DNA from: Colwellia sp.
GTDB taxonomy: Bacteria > Pseudomonadota > Gammaproteobacteria > Enterobacterales > Alteromonadaceae
NCBI GenBank assembly: GCA_013215385.1
Contig: JABSOY010000005.1
Location: 434,001-498,000 of the forward strand
DNA length: 64,000 bases
Reading direction: 5' to 3'
Part shown: positions 7,601 through 23,340 of the stretch, in pieces
Position numbering within the stretch: the first letter of the stretch is position 1
How the letters are laid out: each line of letters begins with the position of its first letter
Position numbers and translations under genes: made by a program
The notes under the pieces: generated by a model
Told to the model about the DNA's origin: nothing
The model's database searches: none
The model's input: the letters and a program-made list of their open reading frames with translations, nothing else

Positions 7601-7689
7601 TTAAGCGCTAAAACTTGCTGATAAATTGCACTTATTCTTAATTAAACCTTGCTATTTTTAGCTAGCTGACGATAATCGCCTGATAAAAT

Positions 7690-7812
7690 TAGTTAACTCC
7701 TTTTTAATGGGGAATGTGGTGAAAGTCCACAACTGTACCCGCAACTGTAAAAGCTTTTAATTCTATGTGTTTAGTGAAAAGCTTGAGTCAGGTTACCCAT
7801 TAATGAGTAGTG
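7690..7812 (+). promoter_or_regulatory. Cobalamin riboswitch 1 (btuD-cob operon leader)
   Basis: The conserved B12-box core is visible: GGGGAATGTGGTGAAAGTCC, then the ACCCGCAACTGTAA segment and GAGTCAGGTTACCC. The closing stem TTAATGGG (7704-7711) pairs with CCCATTAA (7796-7803). Downstream, TCGAG/CTCGA (7823-7840) may be part of the expression platform. Bound adenosylcobalamin would be expected to shut off the uptake and assembly operon that follows. Confidence 0.93.
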
Positions 7813-7883
7813 ATAAACAAAGTCGAGCGGGATTACTCGAGCATTGTATGTTCAATTCTTTGGTAAATTTCATTACCTAAAAA

Positions 7884-17756: not shown

Positions 17757-19142
17757 TTAGTTTCTAAATGATTCTGCATTCAAGTGATGTTTTTTCAGTA
17801 GTTTATAGAATTCAGTGCGATTTCGCTGAGCTATTTTAGCGGCTTGTGAAACATTACCTGCAGTTGTTTTTAATAAGGTTGCTAAATAGTCACGTTCAAA
17901 TTGCTCTCTTGCTTCTTGAAACGACGGTAGTTGTGCACTTTGTGCCCGTAGCGCGTTACCAATTAAGGCGTCGCTGATCAGTGGTTCGGTAGAAAGTGCC
18001 ACACATTGTTCGACAACATTTTGCAATTGACGAATATTACCAGGCCAGTCTGCGCTTATTAAGAATTCCATCGCTTCTTGGGTAAAGCCATTAATTATAT
18101 GAGCGGTGTTTTTGATGGCTAAACTAAGAAAGTGCTGTGCTAATAGAGGAATGTCTTCCCGACGTTCAGCTAGTGCAGGTAATGTTAATTCAACAACGTT
18201 CAAACGATAATAAAGATCTTCACGGAAGCTTTTATCAATAATCGCTTGCTGTAAATTTTTATGTGTCGCAGCAATAATGCGCACGTTTACTTTTATCGAT
18301 TGGCTGCTACCGACAGGTCGCACTTCTTTTTCCTGCAAAACGCGCAATAATTTCACTTGAAAACTCATCGGCATATCACCGATCTCATCAAGAAATAATG
18401 TGCCGCCCTCGGTTGCTTGAAATAAGCCTTGATGGTTTTTGTCAGCACCAGTAAACGCACCTTTACAATGACCAAATAATTCGGACTCTAATAATTGTTC
18501 AGGAATTGCTGCACAGTTAATCGCCGTGAATGTTTGCTGGTGTCGCTTACTGGCTAAGTGCACGGCTTTAGCCAGTAATTCTTTACCTGTGCCGCTTGGA
18601 CTATGAATTAGCAAGCTAAAATCGCTTTGGGCAACTTGGTAAGTTTGTTGTAATAAGGAAGCCATAATAGCACTACGACTGATTATTTTTTCTCGCCAAA
18701 CATACGTTTTTTGACTTGTCGCCGTGATATTGTTTTGTGGCTGTAAACGTATGGCTTGTTGTACAGTTGCTAATAATTCTTGGCTTTCAAAGGGCTTAGT
18801 TAAAAAACTGAAAACACCTTGTTTAGTGGCATTAATTGCATCAGGAATTGTGCCGTGAGCGGTCATAATAATAACGGGTAAGTTAGGCTGTTGCTGGCGA
18901 ATTTTTTCAAACAATGCCATACCGTCCATACCTTCCATGCGCAAGTCACTGATCACTAATTGTGGGTTAAAGCTTTTTAAAATACCTAACGCCATTTTTG
19001 CACTATTAGCCGACTCTATTTGATAACCGGCAGCGGATAAACGAATACCGAGCAACCTTAATAGACTAGGATCGTCATCAACGAGTAGTATTTTTTCTGA
19101 GGTGTTTTTAGCGTACTGTTTTTCAATGTTTTTTGATGTCAC
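17757..19142 (-). CDS. glrR: Sigma-54-dependent response regulator GlrR (QseF)
   Basis: A 461-residue bacterial enhancer-binding protein. It has a receiver domain with DDD at 22-24 and phospho-acceptor Asp66, then a AAA+ domain with Walker A SPSGTGKE, intact GAFTGA sigma-54 contact loop, GGTLFLDEIGDMP and the arginine-finger region FREDLYYRLNVVELTLPALAERRED, then a Fis-type helix-turn-helix (NVSQAAKIAQRNRTEFYKLL). Gene order kinase-lipoprotein-regulator is that of enterobacterial glrK-qseG-glrR. Start is GTG at 19142, five bases after the stop of the lipoprotein gene. In E. coli GlrR activates glmY and rpoE promoters through TGTC-N10-GACA sites. Confidence 0.93.
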   Translation of the reverse strand: MTSKNIEKQYAKNTSEKILLVDDDPSLLRLLGIRLSAAGYQIESANSAKMALGILKSFNPQLVISDLRMEGMDGMALFEKIRQQQPNLPVIIMTAHGTIPDAINATKQGVFSFLTKPFESQELLATVQQAIRLQPQNNITATSQKTYVWREKIISRSAIMASLLQQTYQVAQSDFSLLIHSPSGTGKELLAKAVHLASKRHQQTFTAINCAAIPEQLLESELFGHCKGAFTGADKNHQGLFQATEGGTLFLDEIGDMPMSFQVKLLRVLQEKEVRPVGSSQSIKVNVRIIAATHKNLQQAIIDKSFREDLYYRLNVVELTLPALAERREDIPLLAQHFLSLAIKNTAHIINGFTQEAMEFLISADWPGNIRQLQNVVEQCVALSTEPLISDALIGNALRAQSAQLPSFQEAREQFERDYLATLLKTTAGNVSQAAKIAQRNRTEFYKLLKKHHLNAESFRN

Positions 19143-19147
19143 CGTGA

Positions 19148-19750
19148 TTACCGCCCATGCTCATTAATATTGGCTTCTAACTTTTTAAGTTGCATCATTT
19201 GTTGCTGTAAATGCTGAAACTCTATTTGCTGTTGCAGATATGTTTGTTTAATTTTGTCGTGGGATTTTTTTGCTAAAGTTAACCTATTTATCAGTAAAAT
19301 TTGCTGATTTAACTGTTCTTTTAGCATGCCAAAAAAGGCGAAGTCAGCCGGTATTAATATGACAGCGTCTAACGCTGCTAACGATAACTGATTCAACTTA
19401 CTCTTTGCAGTAAATGGATTATGAATGGGCGATTTCGGTAATGAATAAACGAGTACTGACTTTAATTGCCATTCAATGGTTAAATTGTTGGCAAGTTTTT
19501 TTGTTTTATCTAGAGGAAGTGTCTTGAGATGATGTATTTCATCCATTAACTGTTTTTCGCTAAGTTGGCTTAATAATAAATAATACTGGCCATAGTTTAT
19601 GTCGCTATTTTCAATATTATCTGTAAATCGAGAATCCCTCGTTGACTGACAGCCACTTAAGACAATGAGCAAGGTAGCGACCATTAATTGTAGATATAAC
19701 ACTAATTTAGCAGGCCTACATTGACAACTTAATTGATAAGTATCATGCAT
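19148..19750 (-). CDS. qseG: QseG-like lipoprotein of the GlrK/GlrR system
   Basis: A 200-residue lipoprotein: hydrophobic leader at about 17-33 with lipobox LSGC, then a helical, Gln-rich C-terminal part likely to form a coiled coil (QQQIEFQHLQQQMMQLKKLE). Sequence conservation of QseG is low, so the call rests on position: its ATG overlaps the kinase stop by one base and the regulator follows by five. In enterobacteria QseG is an outer-membrane lipoprotein that activates the kinase. Confidence 0.75.
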   Translation of the reverse strand: MHDTYQLSCQCRPAKLVLYLQLMVATLLIVLSGCQSTRDSRFTDNIENSDINYGQYYLLLSQLSEKQLMDEIHHLKTLPLDKTKKLANNLTIEWQLKSVLVYSLPKSPIHNPFTAKSKLNQLSLAALDAVILIPADFAFFGMLKEQLNQQILLINRLTLAKKSHDKIKQTYLQQQIEFQHLQQQMMQLKKLEANINEHGR

Positions 19751-21249
19751 TAAACTTGTACTCCATTATTGGCTTTAATGTGATAAGCATTAGGGAGTGT
19801 TATAGCCATAGTTGTGCCACTTTTATCGCTACTATTTTTACCGACTATACTCGTTACCTTAATGGTACCTTGAAGTCGCATTAATAACTCCTTTACTATC
19901 GTTAAACCTAAACCACTGCCTTTTATTTGGCTGTTTTCTGCGGGAGTACCTTGATAAAAAGCGTCGAATATATTTTCTTGCTGCTCTGCTGATATGCCAA
20001 GGCCATAATCTGTTACCGATAAATTTAATTGTGAATTTTGTACATTGCACGCTATTTTTATCTGACTATTTATTGGGGAATACTTTATCGCATTGGATAA
20101 TAAGTTATCCAAAATAACACTTAGCTGTTTACTATTAACCTTGATTTTTATTCTTTGTAGTTCATTAATGACTGTTAAATTCTTCCGCTTAATATCTAAA
20201 GTTCTTTGCTGTAAAACTTGCGCTATTAAAGAAGATAATTCTACTGTTTCAGCATCTTGTAAACTTGTCGAGTCGAGCACGATATTAAAATCGAGCAGAT
20301 CCTCAATCAAACGCTGTAAGCGATTTACACTACTGCGAATGATCTTCGATATCTCTTGTTGCCCAGCATTTAACTCACCGACACTGTTATCATAAAGTAA
20401 CTCTGTACCTTCTCTTATCGCGGCTAGAGGTGTTTTTAACTCATGAGATATATGGCGAATAAAACTCGATTTTTGTAGTTCCAGTGCATGTAATCGATTA
20501 CGCATTATCTCTAGAGCATCAGCAATTTCCTTTATTTCAGGAGAGCCACTAAAGGTCACTTTATTGTTAAAATTCCCTTGCTCTAAATACTGTATTTTAA
20601 GCAGTAACTTTTTCAGGGGATTGGTGATTAAAAAGATGAAAACTGCCGCAATAATCAAAGCAAAAGGAATAATAATTAAACTTGTTAACATATCGTGTCT
20701 TACACCACTTGCCGACGCCCTTATTTTTTCTGCTTGATTAAGTAAAAGGTTATTACTGCGTTCAGTTATTTTGTTTCTAATATTTATTAATTTTTTGAAG
20801 TAATCCTTTAAAGGAATTAATGAAGCCGTTTCTAGCTGCTGCTTAATTAAATACTGGTGCAGGTAGGAAATTATTTCCGATAACTCCTGGCTATGTTCAC
20901 GTAAAATTTCGTCATTTTTAAATACGGAATTTTCGGCTAAATTTACCAGTATATTCTGCTCTTGCTGAAAGTAACGCATTAAAATATCTTGGTCTTTTAA
21001 AATTAAAAATTGGCTAGCACTACGTTCCATTTTATCTAAAGTGAAGTTCAGTTGACGATTAGTTTTTACTAACTCAGCAACATGGAAAATAGCAAATGTA
21101 CTTTGATGAGAAAGCTGAGTGACTTGGCTGGCACTGTAAAGTAAGGCAAGTACTAACGGTAAAGCTACCAAGCTAAAACCTAAAATAGTGAGTTTTTTTA
21201 TGGAAAGTGAACGAATAGCTAACATAGCGGGAAAGTTGATTTTTTTCAT
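19750..21249 (-). CDS. glrK: Sensor histidine kinase GlrK (QseE)
   Basis: Membrane sensor kinase with TM1 near residues 20-38, a helical periplasmic domain of about 155 residues, TM2 (IIPFALIIAAVFIFLI), HAMP, HisKA with SFIRHISHELKTPL (His269 from the chosen start) and HATPase with DYGLGISAEQQENIFDAFYQ and GSGLGLTIVKELL. The frame is open to a GTG at 21345. Starts at 21249 or 21225 fit the short cytoplasmic N-terminus of E. coli GlrK better, but none has a Shine-Dalgarno, so the start is uncertain. First gene of the glrK-qseG-glrR operon. Confidence 0.88.
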   Translation of the reverse strand: MKKINFPAMLAIRSLSIKKLTILGFSLVALPLVLALLYSASQVTQLSHQSTFAIFHVAELVKTNRQLNFTLDKMERSASQFLILKDQDILMRYFQQEQNILVNLAENSVFKNDEILREHSQELSEIISYLHQYLIKQQLETASLIPLKDYFKKLINIRNKITERSNNLLLNQAEKIRASASGVRHDMLTSLIIIPFALIIAAVFIFLITNPLKKLLLKIQYLEQGNFNNKVTFSGSPEIKEIADALEIMRNRLHALELQKSSFIRHISHELKTPLAAIREGTELLYDNSVGELNAGQQEISKIIRSSVNRLQRLIEDLLDFNIVLDSTSLQDAETVELSSLIAQVLQQRTLDIKRKNLTVINELQRIKIKVNSKQLSVILDNLLSNAIKYSPINSQIKIACNVQNSQLNLSVTDYGLGISAEQQENIFDAFYQGTPAENSQIKGSGLGLTIVKELLMRLQGTIKVTSIVGKNSSDKSGTTMAITLPNAYHIKANNGVQV

Positions 21250-21441
21250 GGTAGTCATAAGTAATAACGAGGTGAGTAGTGTAATTTTTTTATGCAAAAA
21301 TACAAGGGTGTCGCTAATTTGAGACAGGTAGTTTTTTTCTTTCACAGCTAAATTATTGACAGAATAATTAGGCTAGTGACTGTTTTTATTCAATATATTA
21401 AAAGTACGCTAAGTATTTATTTAATTTACAATAATTTTACC

Positions 21442-21459
21442 TGTTGCCAAATGACGACA
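21442..21459 (+). promoter_or_regulatory. Possible GlrR upstream activator site
   Basis: TGTT-N10-GACA, one mismatch from the TGTC-N10-GACA GlrR site described in E. coli. It is 64 bases upstream of the candidate -24 element at 21523. Confidence 0.35.
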
Positions 21460-21522
21460 CAATAACTTGGGTTTTATTTACCTTGTTAGTATTTTTTCTT
21501 TTAAATCAGTTGATTATAACTT

Positions 21523-21538
21523 TGGTTTGATTCCTGCA
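21523..21538 (+). promoter_or_regulatory. Candidate sigma-54 promoter of the EF-hand gene
   Basis: TGGTTTGATTCCTGCA keeps the invariant GG-N10-GC spacing, though the bases between are only a fair match to consensus. It is oriented toward the EF-hand gene, with a predicted start about 58 bases before its ATG. Confidence 0.45.
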
Positions 21539-21606
21539 ATATCACATTTGATATTAATTCAATTAATTAAAATAAACTTATGAACTCTATGAATAAAGGA
21601 ATTGAA

Positions 21607-21972
21607 ATGAACCATATTAGCTTAAAAAAAGTCACCTTAGTTGTGAGTACTTGTGTATTAGCGTCTTATTTTGTCAGTGCTGAGGAGAAGGTCGCAAGCC
21701 TTGTTGTACCCACAGTAGAAGCCATCTCAGTACAATTGGCCACAACAGACCGCATAGCAACCGCTATTACTGATATTCCCGCACTATTAACAAAGCTTGA
21801 TAGTAATAAAAATGGTTTGCTTAATCTCGCAGAAGTCGCGGCAAGTAATAACGAAGTACTCGCTAAACATTTTAAAGACATTGACCAAAACGCTGATGCT
21901 GAAATAAGTGCTAGCGAATTAAAACATTACTTTACTGCAGTTAAAACCCCAAAGGTTAGTGCAGATGGCTAA
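21607..21972 (+). CDS. Secreted EF-hand protein
   Basis: A 121-residue exported protein with a signal peptide (residues 1-25, cleavage near VSA-EE) and two EF-hand loops: DSNKNGLLNLAE (65-76), canonical, and DQNADAEISASE (93-104), where the usual Gly at position 6 is Ala. It probably binds calcium in the periplasm. The start at 21607 has AAAGGA 7 bases upstream; the open frame reaches back to 21580. Transcribed divergently from glrK and preceded by a possible sigma-54 promoter. Confidence 0.8.
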   Translation: MNHISLKKVTLVVSTCVLASYFVSAEEKVASLVVPTVEAISVQLATTDRIATAITDIPALLTKLDSNKNGLLNLAEVAASNNEVLAKHFKDIDQNADAEISASELKHYFTAVKTPKVSADG

Positions 21973-22020: not shown

Positions 22021-22052
22021 TCCGGTTGTTAAAGATTTGCAGCCGGTTTTTT
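22021..22052 (+). terminator. Terminator after the EF-hand gene
   Basis: CCGGTTG / CAGCCGG stem (one G-T pair), followed by six T residues. Confidence 0.8.
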
Positions 22053-22088: not shown

Positions 22089-22445
22089 ATGAATAACGAA
22101 TTTACTCATACCTCAGCGGCTAAATTGATGCCTAGATTTGTGCAAGTTGCTGACTGGATTTTTGAAGTGAAAACTGTACGTGCTTTACGTGTTGACCAAT
22201 ACGGCAAACCTTATACAGCTATTGCTAATTTAACGATTAATGGGGATACCGCATACCTAGATGGTTTATTAACACGTGAAAATGAAAAGTTTTCTCGTAA
22301 AGACTTTCAAGCTTTCTATAAATTTTGCCAACAAATGCAAGTTAAACAAGCCAACTTCGATCGCTTTAAAAATAATGAGTTAGTCTCTGAATGTATTGAT
22401 ATTCAAGCTATTAAAAGCAAAACCATGCTAAAACTAGTCCGCTAA
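22089..22445 (+). CDS. Conserved-looking hypothetical protein (118 residues)
   Basis: No family recognised. Soluble, no signal peptide, slightly basic, alternating strand and helix character (IFEVKTVRALRVDQYGKPYTAIANLTINGDTAYLDGLL, then FSRKDFQAFYKFCQQM). The chosen ATG has GAGAAGG 7 bases upstream; a longer frame from 22026 overlaps the preceding terminator. It has its own upstream region and precedes a pseudouridine synthase gene. Confidence 0.7.
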   Translation: MNNEFTHTSAAKLMPRFVQVADWIFEVKTVRALRVDQYGKPYTAIANLTINGDTAYLDGLLTRENEKFSRKDFQAFYKFCQQMQVKQANFDRFKNNELVSECIDIQAIKSKTMLKLVR

Positions 22446-22548: not shown

Positions 22549-23340
22549 ATGTCATTAAATACTGCTCGTCTCGACCGTTTCATTAGTGAGCATTGTAAAG
22601 TAAGCCGTAGAGATGTGCGTTTAATGTTAGCAAAAAAGCGTATTTGTGTAGATGGTTGTATCGTTGATGATATTGGCCTGCGCATTGATCGTTTTGCAAA
22701 AATCACCCTTGACGGAGATATTTTACAGGAAAATAAAGCGATCTACATTATGTTGCACAAACCGATTGGTGTGGTCAGCGCGACAGTAGACAAGCAACAT
22801 AAAACCGTAATCGATTTATTAGAAGAGCAAAATTTATTAGTGAATCAAGCATTAGCTGAAAAAGGCAATTTACACATTGTCGGCAGGTTAGATCTCAATA
22901 CTTCAGGCTTACTGTTGCTAACTAACGACAGTCGTTGGTCTGAGCGTCTTACTTCCCCAGAACACAAAGTTGAAAAATGTTATCAGGTACGCTTACAAAA
23001 TCCATTAACTGAAGATTATGCACAAGCCTTTGCTAATGGGATGTATTTTGAATTTGAAAATATCACCACTAAACCTGCAGTGTTTAAGGTTATTGCTAAT
23101 CAAACCAATGAACAGGGTAATCGATATATTGCAGAAGTAAAATTAATTGAAGGGCGTTACCACCAAATAAAGCGTATGTTTGGTCGATTTCGCAATCCGG
23201 TTATTGGCTTGCACCGAAAAAGCATAGGAAGTTTATTACTGGATGAACAGTTAATAGCGGGTCAAAGCCGGCTATTAACTGATGATGAAGTGCTTGGGAT
23301 TTTCCAAAAAGATATGCTTACTGACAAACCTACTGATTAA
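22549..23340 (+). CDS. RsuA/RluB-family pseudouridine synthase
   Basis: A 263-residue rRNA pseudouridine synthase. N-terminal S4-like domain (RLDRFISEHCKVSRRDVRLMLAKKRICVDG), then the catalytic domain with KPIGVVSATVD, the catalytic-Asp motif GRLDLNTSGLLLLTND, WSERLTSPEHKVEKCYQV and IEGRYHQIKRMF. The SP-EHKVEK-Y segment is most like RsuA (16S U516), but RluE/RluF-type activity cannot be excluded. It converges with the RIO kinase gene, 5 bases apart. Confidence 0.9.
   Translation: MSLNTARLDRFISEHCKVSRRDVRLMLAKKRICVDGCIVDDIGLRIDRFAKITLDGDILQENKAIYIMLHKPIGVVSATVDKQHKTVIDLLEEQNLLVNQALAEKGNLHIVGRLDLNTSGLLLLTNDSRWSERLTSPEHKVEKCYQVRLQNPLTEDYAQAFANGMYFEFENITTKPAVFKVIANQTNEQGNRYIAEVKLIEGRYHQIKRMFGRFRNPVIGLHRKSIGSLLLDEQLIAGQSRLLTDDEVLGIFQKDMLTDKPTD

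Follow-up and report, generated by a model that had tools for sequence, protein, structure and literature searches.

The gene for a small EF-hand protein that lies divergent from glrK in this Colwellia sp. genome is very probably under the direct control of GlrK/GlrR, the system encoded next to it. Judging from the conservation of its promoter region, the gene would be transcribed by the sigma-54 RNA polymerase into an mRNA of about 500 nt. The window, i.e. the whole stretch of 64,000 nt that we analyzed, carries two GlrR boxes, an IHF-like site, and a sigma-54 element in front of this gene. The original prediction that the EF-hand gene is a GlrR target is supported by the finding of the two-box and sigma-54 layout at all 59 glrK loci examined.

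Results

The GlrK/GlrR system and RpoN of the host genome

The host genome (5.1 Mb in 40 contigs) contains one copy of rpoN, and the window contains the genes for GlrR and GlrK (Table 1). We take GlrR to be the probable ortholog of E. coli GlrR by its identity and by the operon order, not by the NCBIfam model; GlrR is the best model there with 636.7 bits, under the equivalog cut-off of 763. The HTH segment RNRTEFYKLL is identical in the two proteins. Comparing seven other activators of the same genome, we find a best long match of 42.6% over 380 residues and one shorter match of 51% over 222 residues. The product of the small gene between glrR and glrK gave a weak LPAM_1 match (E 0.23) and, by BLAST, showed no resemblance to E. 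coli QseG, which leaves a QseG identity unsupported. A relative of this gene was present at 17 of the 20 family loci scanned, its own locus included.

Table 1. Features of the glrR-glrK-EF-hand region (positions in the window; last row, positions in the respective loci)
Feature	Position	Strand	Basis or remark
glrR, sigma-54 activator	17757-19142	-	58% identical to E. coli GlrR, 434 residues
yfhG/qseG-like lipoprotein gene	19148-19750	-	position and lipobox-like segment only
glrK, sensor kinase, divergent from EF-hand gene	19750-21249	-	29% identical to E. coli GlrK, 428 columns
GlrR box 1, TGTCGCTAATTTGAGACA, perfect TGTC-N10-GACA	21309-21326	.	motif scan
GlrR box 2, TGTTGCCAAATGACGACA, TGTT-N10-GACA, one mismatch	21442-21459	.	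motif scan
IHF-like site, AATCAGTTGATTA, fits WATCARNNNNTTR	21504-21516	+	19 bp 5' of TGG
Sigma-54 -24/-12 element, TGGTTTGATTCCTGCA	21523-21538	+	conservation, joint scoring
Shine-Dalgarno and start codon, AAAGGAATTGAAATG	21594-21609	+	15/16 columns invariant, 4 genomes
EF-hand gene, 121-aa protein, two EF-hand loops	21607-21972	+	PF13499; relatives aligned
EF-hand loop 1, DSNKNGLLNLAE	21799-21834	+	D1 and E12 invariant in 49/49
EF-hand loop 2, DQNADAEISASE	21883-21918	+	D1 and E12 invariant in 49/49
Intrinsic-terminator-like hairpin CCGGTTG...CAGCCGG, then six T	22022-22052	+	own hairpin search
Next gene, 118-aa protein, without significant Pfam match	22089-22445	+	Pfam search
Conserved leaders of co-directional loci	L082 1318-1500; L089 1273-1465; L091 793-978; L093 1333-1525; L095 732-923; L096 710-904

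Promoter elements between glrK and the EF-hand gene

The original prediction had placed a TGTT-N10-GACA site and a GG-N10-GC sigma-54-like element between glrK and the EF-hand gene, and both are present. The former is box 2. The latter, with GG at 21524-21525 and GC at 21536-21537, is the sole plus-strand GG-N10-GC within 21346-21579, and box 2 lies 81 bp upstream of its -24 TGG. A perfect box (box 1) and an IHF-like site had been missed. The latter owes its name to its fit to WATCARNNNNTTR, which we take to be the IHF consensus.

Taken singly, these elements are no better than chance. Boxes with 0-1 mismatch occur 21 times in the window against 15.6 ± 4.1 expected, a number reached in 18 of 100 shuffles. 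On both strands of the 64 kb, there are 252 GG-N10-GC elements. Measured against TGGCACNNNNNTTGCW, which we take as the sigma-54 consensus, the -24/-12 element of the window has four mismatches, so it falls outside a three-mismatch scan, and that scan is itself at chance (291 versus 276 ± 17). As a set, the elements are far beyond chance, and it is the conservation of their layout that settles the case. A third GlrR-box-like site, TGTTGCTAACTAACGACA at 22913-22930, lies inside the frame 22549-23340 and is probably a chance occurrence.

From the -24/-12 element, transcription is predicted to start near 21549, giving the EF-hand transcript a predicted leader of ~58 nt. The gene likely starts at 21607, behind the Shine-Dalgarno AAAGGA, rather than at 21580; with these starts, PF13499 scores 30.9 and 29.9 bits, respectively, against a cut-off of 30. 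The start of glrK is likely the ATG at 21249 or 21258, so that box 1 would be intergenic, ~50-60 bp upstream of glrK. A default terminator scan (loop limit 8) found none behind the EF-hand gene. Performing our own hairpin search, we find a hairpin followed by six T (Table 1), which predicts a mostly monocistronic mRNA of ~500 nt. Terminator-like hairpins follow 21 of the 49 EF-hand genes described below, and the same search after one other frame (in genome G146) found none.

Conservation of the layout in the genus

Both elements of the original prediction are conserved in related genomes, namely in four members of the genus and at all 59 loci of the family set. In the four same-genus genomes, which include the window's own, the fixed box positions are invariant (16/16), as are 12 of the 16 columns of the -24/-12 element, TGG and TGC included, while the spacers drift. 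Altogether, 50 of 65 columns are invariant in the four motifs versus 101 of 253 in the remaining intergenic region. In a fifth genus relative (G004), the EF-hand protein shares only 31% identity with that of the window; the two boxes and the IHF-like site are nonetheless perfect there and accompanied by TGGTATGGCTTGTGCA. The sixth genus genome (G003) gave no match to GlrR (E up to 1e-115), to GlrK (E up to 1e-40), or, at the thresholds used, to the EF-hand protein.

Conservation and spacing across the family

Searching 196 family genomes with GlrK, we obtained 93 matches at E up to 1e-40. Strong matches (below E 1e-68) came from 61 genomes. We examined 59 of these, from 19 genera, and left out two (G099 and G079), which are fragmented or truncated where a contig ends. 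The 59 loci are 55 relatives, the window's own locus, and three genus loci; they share kinship and are not 59 independent events. Of the 32 weaker genomes, 25 were looked at (L069-L073 and twenty more) and kept outside the 59.

Each of the 59 loci has two GlrR boxes with 0-2 mismatches each, followed by a sigma-54-like element that scores at least 22 of a possible 27. In several other genera the element is a near-consensus TGGCACG-N5-TGCA. A combined score of at least 16 was reached by 56 of the 59 loci versus 1 of 2360 dinucleotide shuffles, and one of at least 19 by 50 loci versus none of the 2360. The elements could still be coincidental, with the gene expressed by other means, and their chance-level frequency when taken singly fits that view. 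However, the window's own combined score of 19 was reached in none of 3000 shuffles of the locus, and the layout recurs at every one of the 59 loci. We regard the probability of coincidence as negligible.

Box 1 and box 2 are 120-123 bp apart in 50 of the 59 loci. The distance from box 2 to the TGG falls into classes of 69-72 bp (28 loci), 80-83 bp (23), 90-93 bp (6), 102 bp (1), and 112 bp (1). These classes are whole helical turns apart, and seven genera hold more than one of them. A Rayleigh test with a 10.5-bp period gave R 0.87 (n = 59, the loci being related and not independent). Such helical phasing would be required if the DNA loops to bring a bound activator to the sigma-54 polymerase. 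The IHF-like site, scored without a shuffle control, is exact at -19 in 17 of the 59 loci, the window's included, and exact within -17 to -21 in 22; it has at most one mismatch in 47.

The phasing bears on the alternative that the boxes serve glrK, i.e. that GlrR acts leftwards on its own operon and the EF-hand gene plays no part. The short distance of box 1 from the glrK start agrees with this alternative. However, the helically phased sigma-54-like element is on the EF-hand strand at 59 of 59 loci, and a permissive pattern, used without control, places a TGGC-type element upstream of the EF-hand frame at 10 of 13 co-directional loci. Moreover, autoregulation of qseEGF was not found in E. coli according to the excerpts of PMC6075780. 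We thus consider leftward autoregulation highly improbable and keep to the EF-hand gene as the target.

Box specificity and genome-wide occurrence

The pair of boxes with the window's spacing occurs once in the 5.1-Mb genome, at this locus, and not in the reversed control. A looser pattern of a single box plus a sigma-54 element gave five matches in the genome, one here and four elsewhere, versus three in the reversed control. When a stricter form was applied to 22 relatives, 18 of its 27 matches were at the glrK locus and nine elsewhere, versus one in the reversed control; GlrR may have further targets beyond the glrK locus. The refined box TGTYKC-N6-RMGACA alone showed no enrichment in the genome (5 rows at 4 places versus 8 in the reversed control).

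An NtrC-type activator other than GlrR might use these boxes, as the Sigma54_activat domain matches the genome at 21 places, 18 of them strong. Against this, the boxes match both the GlrR/QseF consensus TGTCN10GACA published in PMC8745638, as given in its excerpts, and the glmY sites of E. coli. They adjoin glrK at all 59 loci, and GlrR, GlrK, and the EF-hand protein are jointly without a match in G003 at the thresholds used. The chance that another activator acts here appears very slim, and GlrR is the regulator that we favor.

The EF-hand protein

At 49 of the 59 loci, in 14 of the 19 genera, the first gene behind the promoter codes for a protein with two intact EF-hand loops. The predicted kind of output is thus supported for these loci; the other 10 have something else at this place. 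In Pfam, EF-hand family matches were obtained for all 49 relatives (E up to 0.01). By eye, an N-terminal signal-peptide-like segment is seen in the window's protein and in the relatives at the 49 loci. Residues D1 and E12 of the 12-residue loops stay constant though the identity to the window's protein drops to 28%. Several loci have tandem EF-hand copies, up to five in one genome (G087). A homologue of the next gene of the window (22089-22445) is downstream at 41 of the 59 loci.

At E up to 1e-18, EF-hand matches were found in 50 genomes, all beside glrK and all with a GlrR match, and in none of the 64 genomes without a GlrR match. We set aside the Fisher test on this co-occurrence in 196 genomes as evidence. 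It is biased because 49 of the 50 genomes belong to the search profile, which was chosen by glrK linkage. Weaker EF-only matches occur elsewhere, including in a genome without a GlrR match (G101). A single-sequence structure model of the EF-hand protein was all-helix with a mean pLDDT of 60.5 and was discarded. The EF loops of lanmodulin have Pro at position 2. A lanmodulin structure (PDB 6mi5) is a distant match of the window's protein, and we rejected membership in that group, as the loops of the window (DSNKNG.. and DQNADA..) have S and Q, not Pro, at this position.

The E. coli counterpart of the gene is the small RNA glmY, and a conserved leader of ~180-200 nt precedes the EF-hand frame in six co-directional relatives. 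Both facts would suit a regulatory RNA as the working output, with the reading frame being secondary. On the other hand, all 49 proteins keep D1 and E12 in both loops despite their divergence, the predicted leader in the window has just ~58 nt, and no GlmY match was found in the window at the gathering threshold or at 26 related loci besides E. coli. An RNA output in place of the protein is very unlikely, and the EF-hand protein remains our preferred product. In the Rfam searches, RF00128 had no match in the window at the gathering threshold, and E. coli glmY was recovered with the same library at 146 bits. Weak GlmY matches elsewhere did not reach the gathering scores and were discarded. Elsewhere in the window, there is a cobalamin riboswitch at 7663-7818 (Rfam, 51.7 bits).

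Other cargo and other gene arrangements

The 10 loci whose first frame is not an EF-hand gene differ in their cargo. Five (G116, G055, G089, G010, and G048) have small charged secreted-looking proteins of 67-71 aa, one (G037) has a secreted-looking protein of 79 aa, and one (G146) has the homologue of 22089-22445. The remaining three (G066, G127, and G019) have no convincing frame behind the promoter.

Similar arrangements occur in other families. Nine genomes of family f9, which is of the same order, match GlrR, and we analyzed four. Each of the four carries a pair of boxes, neither with more than one mismatch, divergent from glrK and in front of the homologue of 22089-22445; no EF-hand frame was seen at these loci. 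In G338 (f16), an EF-hand frame precedes the 22089-22445 homologue; of the two boxes there, one is perfect and the other has two mismatches. In G370 (f11), an EF-hand frame co-directional with glrK lies behind two boxes. Three boxes, 63 and 32 bp apart in a layout that resembles that of glmY, are present in two f10 genomes and one f18 genome.

At 13 of 20 more distant glrK loci of the family, the EF-hand gene is co-directional with glrK and directly upstream of it, and a separate search gave a fourteenth such locus. Upstream of the frame, one or more boxes with no more than one mismatch are present at 10 of the 13 loci, four of which have a box pair 65-96 bp apart; the other three loci have none. 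Among the five loci L069-L073, that of G167 combines divergent EF-hand genes with one perfect box, and those of G185 and G006 have EF-hand genes and no box with at most one mismatch. No divergent EF-hand frame was found in G129 and G029; in G029, an EF-hand match is directly upstream of glrK on the glrK strand. The linkage of the EF-hand gene to glrK thus exists in two orientations, and the boxes precede several outputs.

At six of the co-directional loci, the leader that separates the EF-hand frame from the sigma-54-like element spans ~180-200 nt (Table 1). These leaders contain the strongly conserved blocks CTGGTTCCT, ATTGGCTG, and GCGTTTGC. In their predicted fold, two-sided changes occur in at least one sequence for 13 of 32 pairs. 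An Rfam search of the six gave no match, and they are possibly a GlrR-controlled RNA. At two other loci (L061 and L062), the promoter lacks a convincing frame. The downstream block that both share, GGCACCTGGTAA...ACAGGTGCCACACATTC, suggests a non-coding RNA, and an Rfam search of the two loci found no match. In some genera (L083, L084, L215, and L216), the gene near the boxes codes for a non-EF-hand protein of ~58-66 aa, MDPIIAVLVTFLIMNLMVVTAMVRRIDVN..., with one membrane span by eye.

Discussion

In the excerpts of PMC6075780, QseF activates glmY, with the assistance of IHF, and rpoE from sigma-54 promoters, and these two are the direct GlrR/QseF targets named there, in enterobacteria. The original prediction drew on the control of glmY by E. 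coli GlrR from similar sites. The boxes of the window fit the published consensus, and the glmY promoter has a similar layout. As far as the excerpts describe it, the glmY promoter of E. coli and other Enterobacteriaceae likewise has its TGTC-N10-GACA boxes on the upstream side of an IHF-like site and of the -24/-12 element, and adjoins glrK-qseG-glrR. Reading the E. coli promoter in the same way as the window, we find TTGGCACAGTTACTGCA, an IHF-like site, and three boxes, all of them perfect. The boxes of E. coli K-12 are 33 and 63 bp apart, whereas the two of the window are 133 bp apart. Furthermore, glmY is co-directional with glrK and yields a small RNA, whereas the EF-hand gene is divergent and yields a protein. 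Promoter P2 of E. coli rpoE is a further parallel: it is a protein-coding QseF/sigma-54 target with similar upstream sites by the description in the PMC6075780 excerpts. Unlike the gene of the window, rpoE encodes a sigma factor.

Bacterial EF-hand proteins have been described in other settings. By the excerpts of the respective papers, Caulobacter has a periplasmic calcium-binding EF-hand protein with a signal peptide (PMC13171946), an EF-hand gene of Bradyrhizobium is lowered in an rpoN mutant (PMC13207237), and EF-hand genes of Rhizobium are raised in bacteroids. The Bradyrhizobium and Rhizobium texts do not mention GlrR or QseF. For the Caulobacter and Bradyrhizobium proteins and lanmodulin, these sources state no link to GlrR of the kind proposed here. 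The excerpts of a paper on the QseG-QseE structure (PMC12691602) report qseEGF across Pseudomonadota. A survey of sigma-54 (PMC3162934) does not mention EF-hand or calcium, and in the open-licence papers searched neither GlrR nor QseF is mentioned together with EF-hand.

We propose that phosphorylated GlrR would bind the two upstream boxes, whose centres are at about -231 and -98 relative to the predicted start, and that IHF would bend the stretch from box 2 to the promoter. GlrR would then activate the sigma-54 polymerase at the -24/-12 element, and the short mRNA would end at the hairpin behind the gene. Its product would be a small exported protein with two intact loops, presumably binding calcium. 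In this way, the activated envelope-stress system would load the periplasm with a calcium-binding protein. The most likely role of the protein would be calcium buffering or a calcium-dependent action at the cell envelope. It may alternatively give feedback on GlrK, and the present evidence separates none of these roles.

A broader and speculative reading, which we think has a smallish chance of being right, is that the GlrR-sigma-54 promoter next to glrK has been conserved since long ago and has served different lineages as a socket for exchanged small envelope-related outputs. These outputs would be the small RNA glmY, the EF-hand protein, small charged secreted proteins, and small membrane proteins. 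In the family of the window, the EF-hand product would then report or set periplasmic calcium and act back on GlrK or its lipoprotein partner. If this feedback is true, GlrK/GlrR would be a calcium-linked envelope sensor.

The same switch is seemingly wired to different outputs in different bacteria. A promoter that stays conserved while its cargo is exchanged would clearly illustrate how regulatory wiring can outlast its target gene, and the whole-turn changes in spacing amount to a natural experiment on how a sigma-54 activator loops DNA. If the output across many genera is a protein with intact calcium loops, this would change the presumed purpose of GlrK/GlrR and would give a direct test of the unsettled signal of the system.
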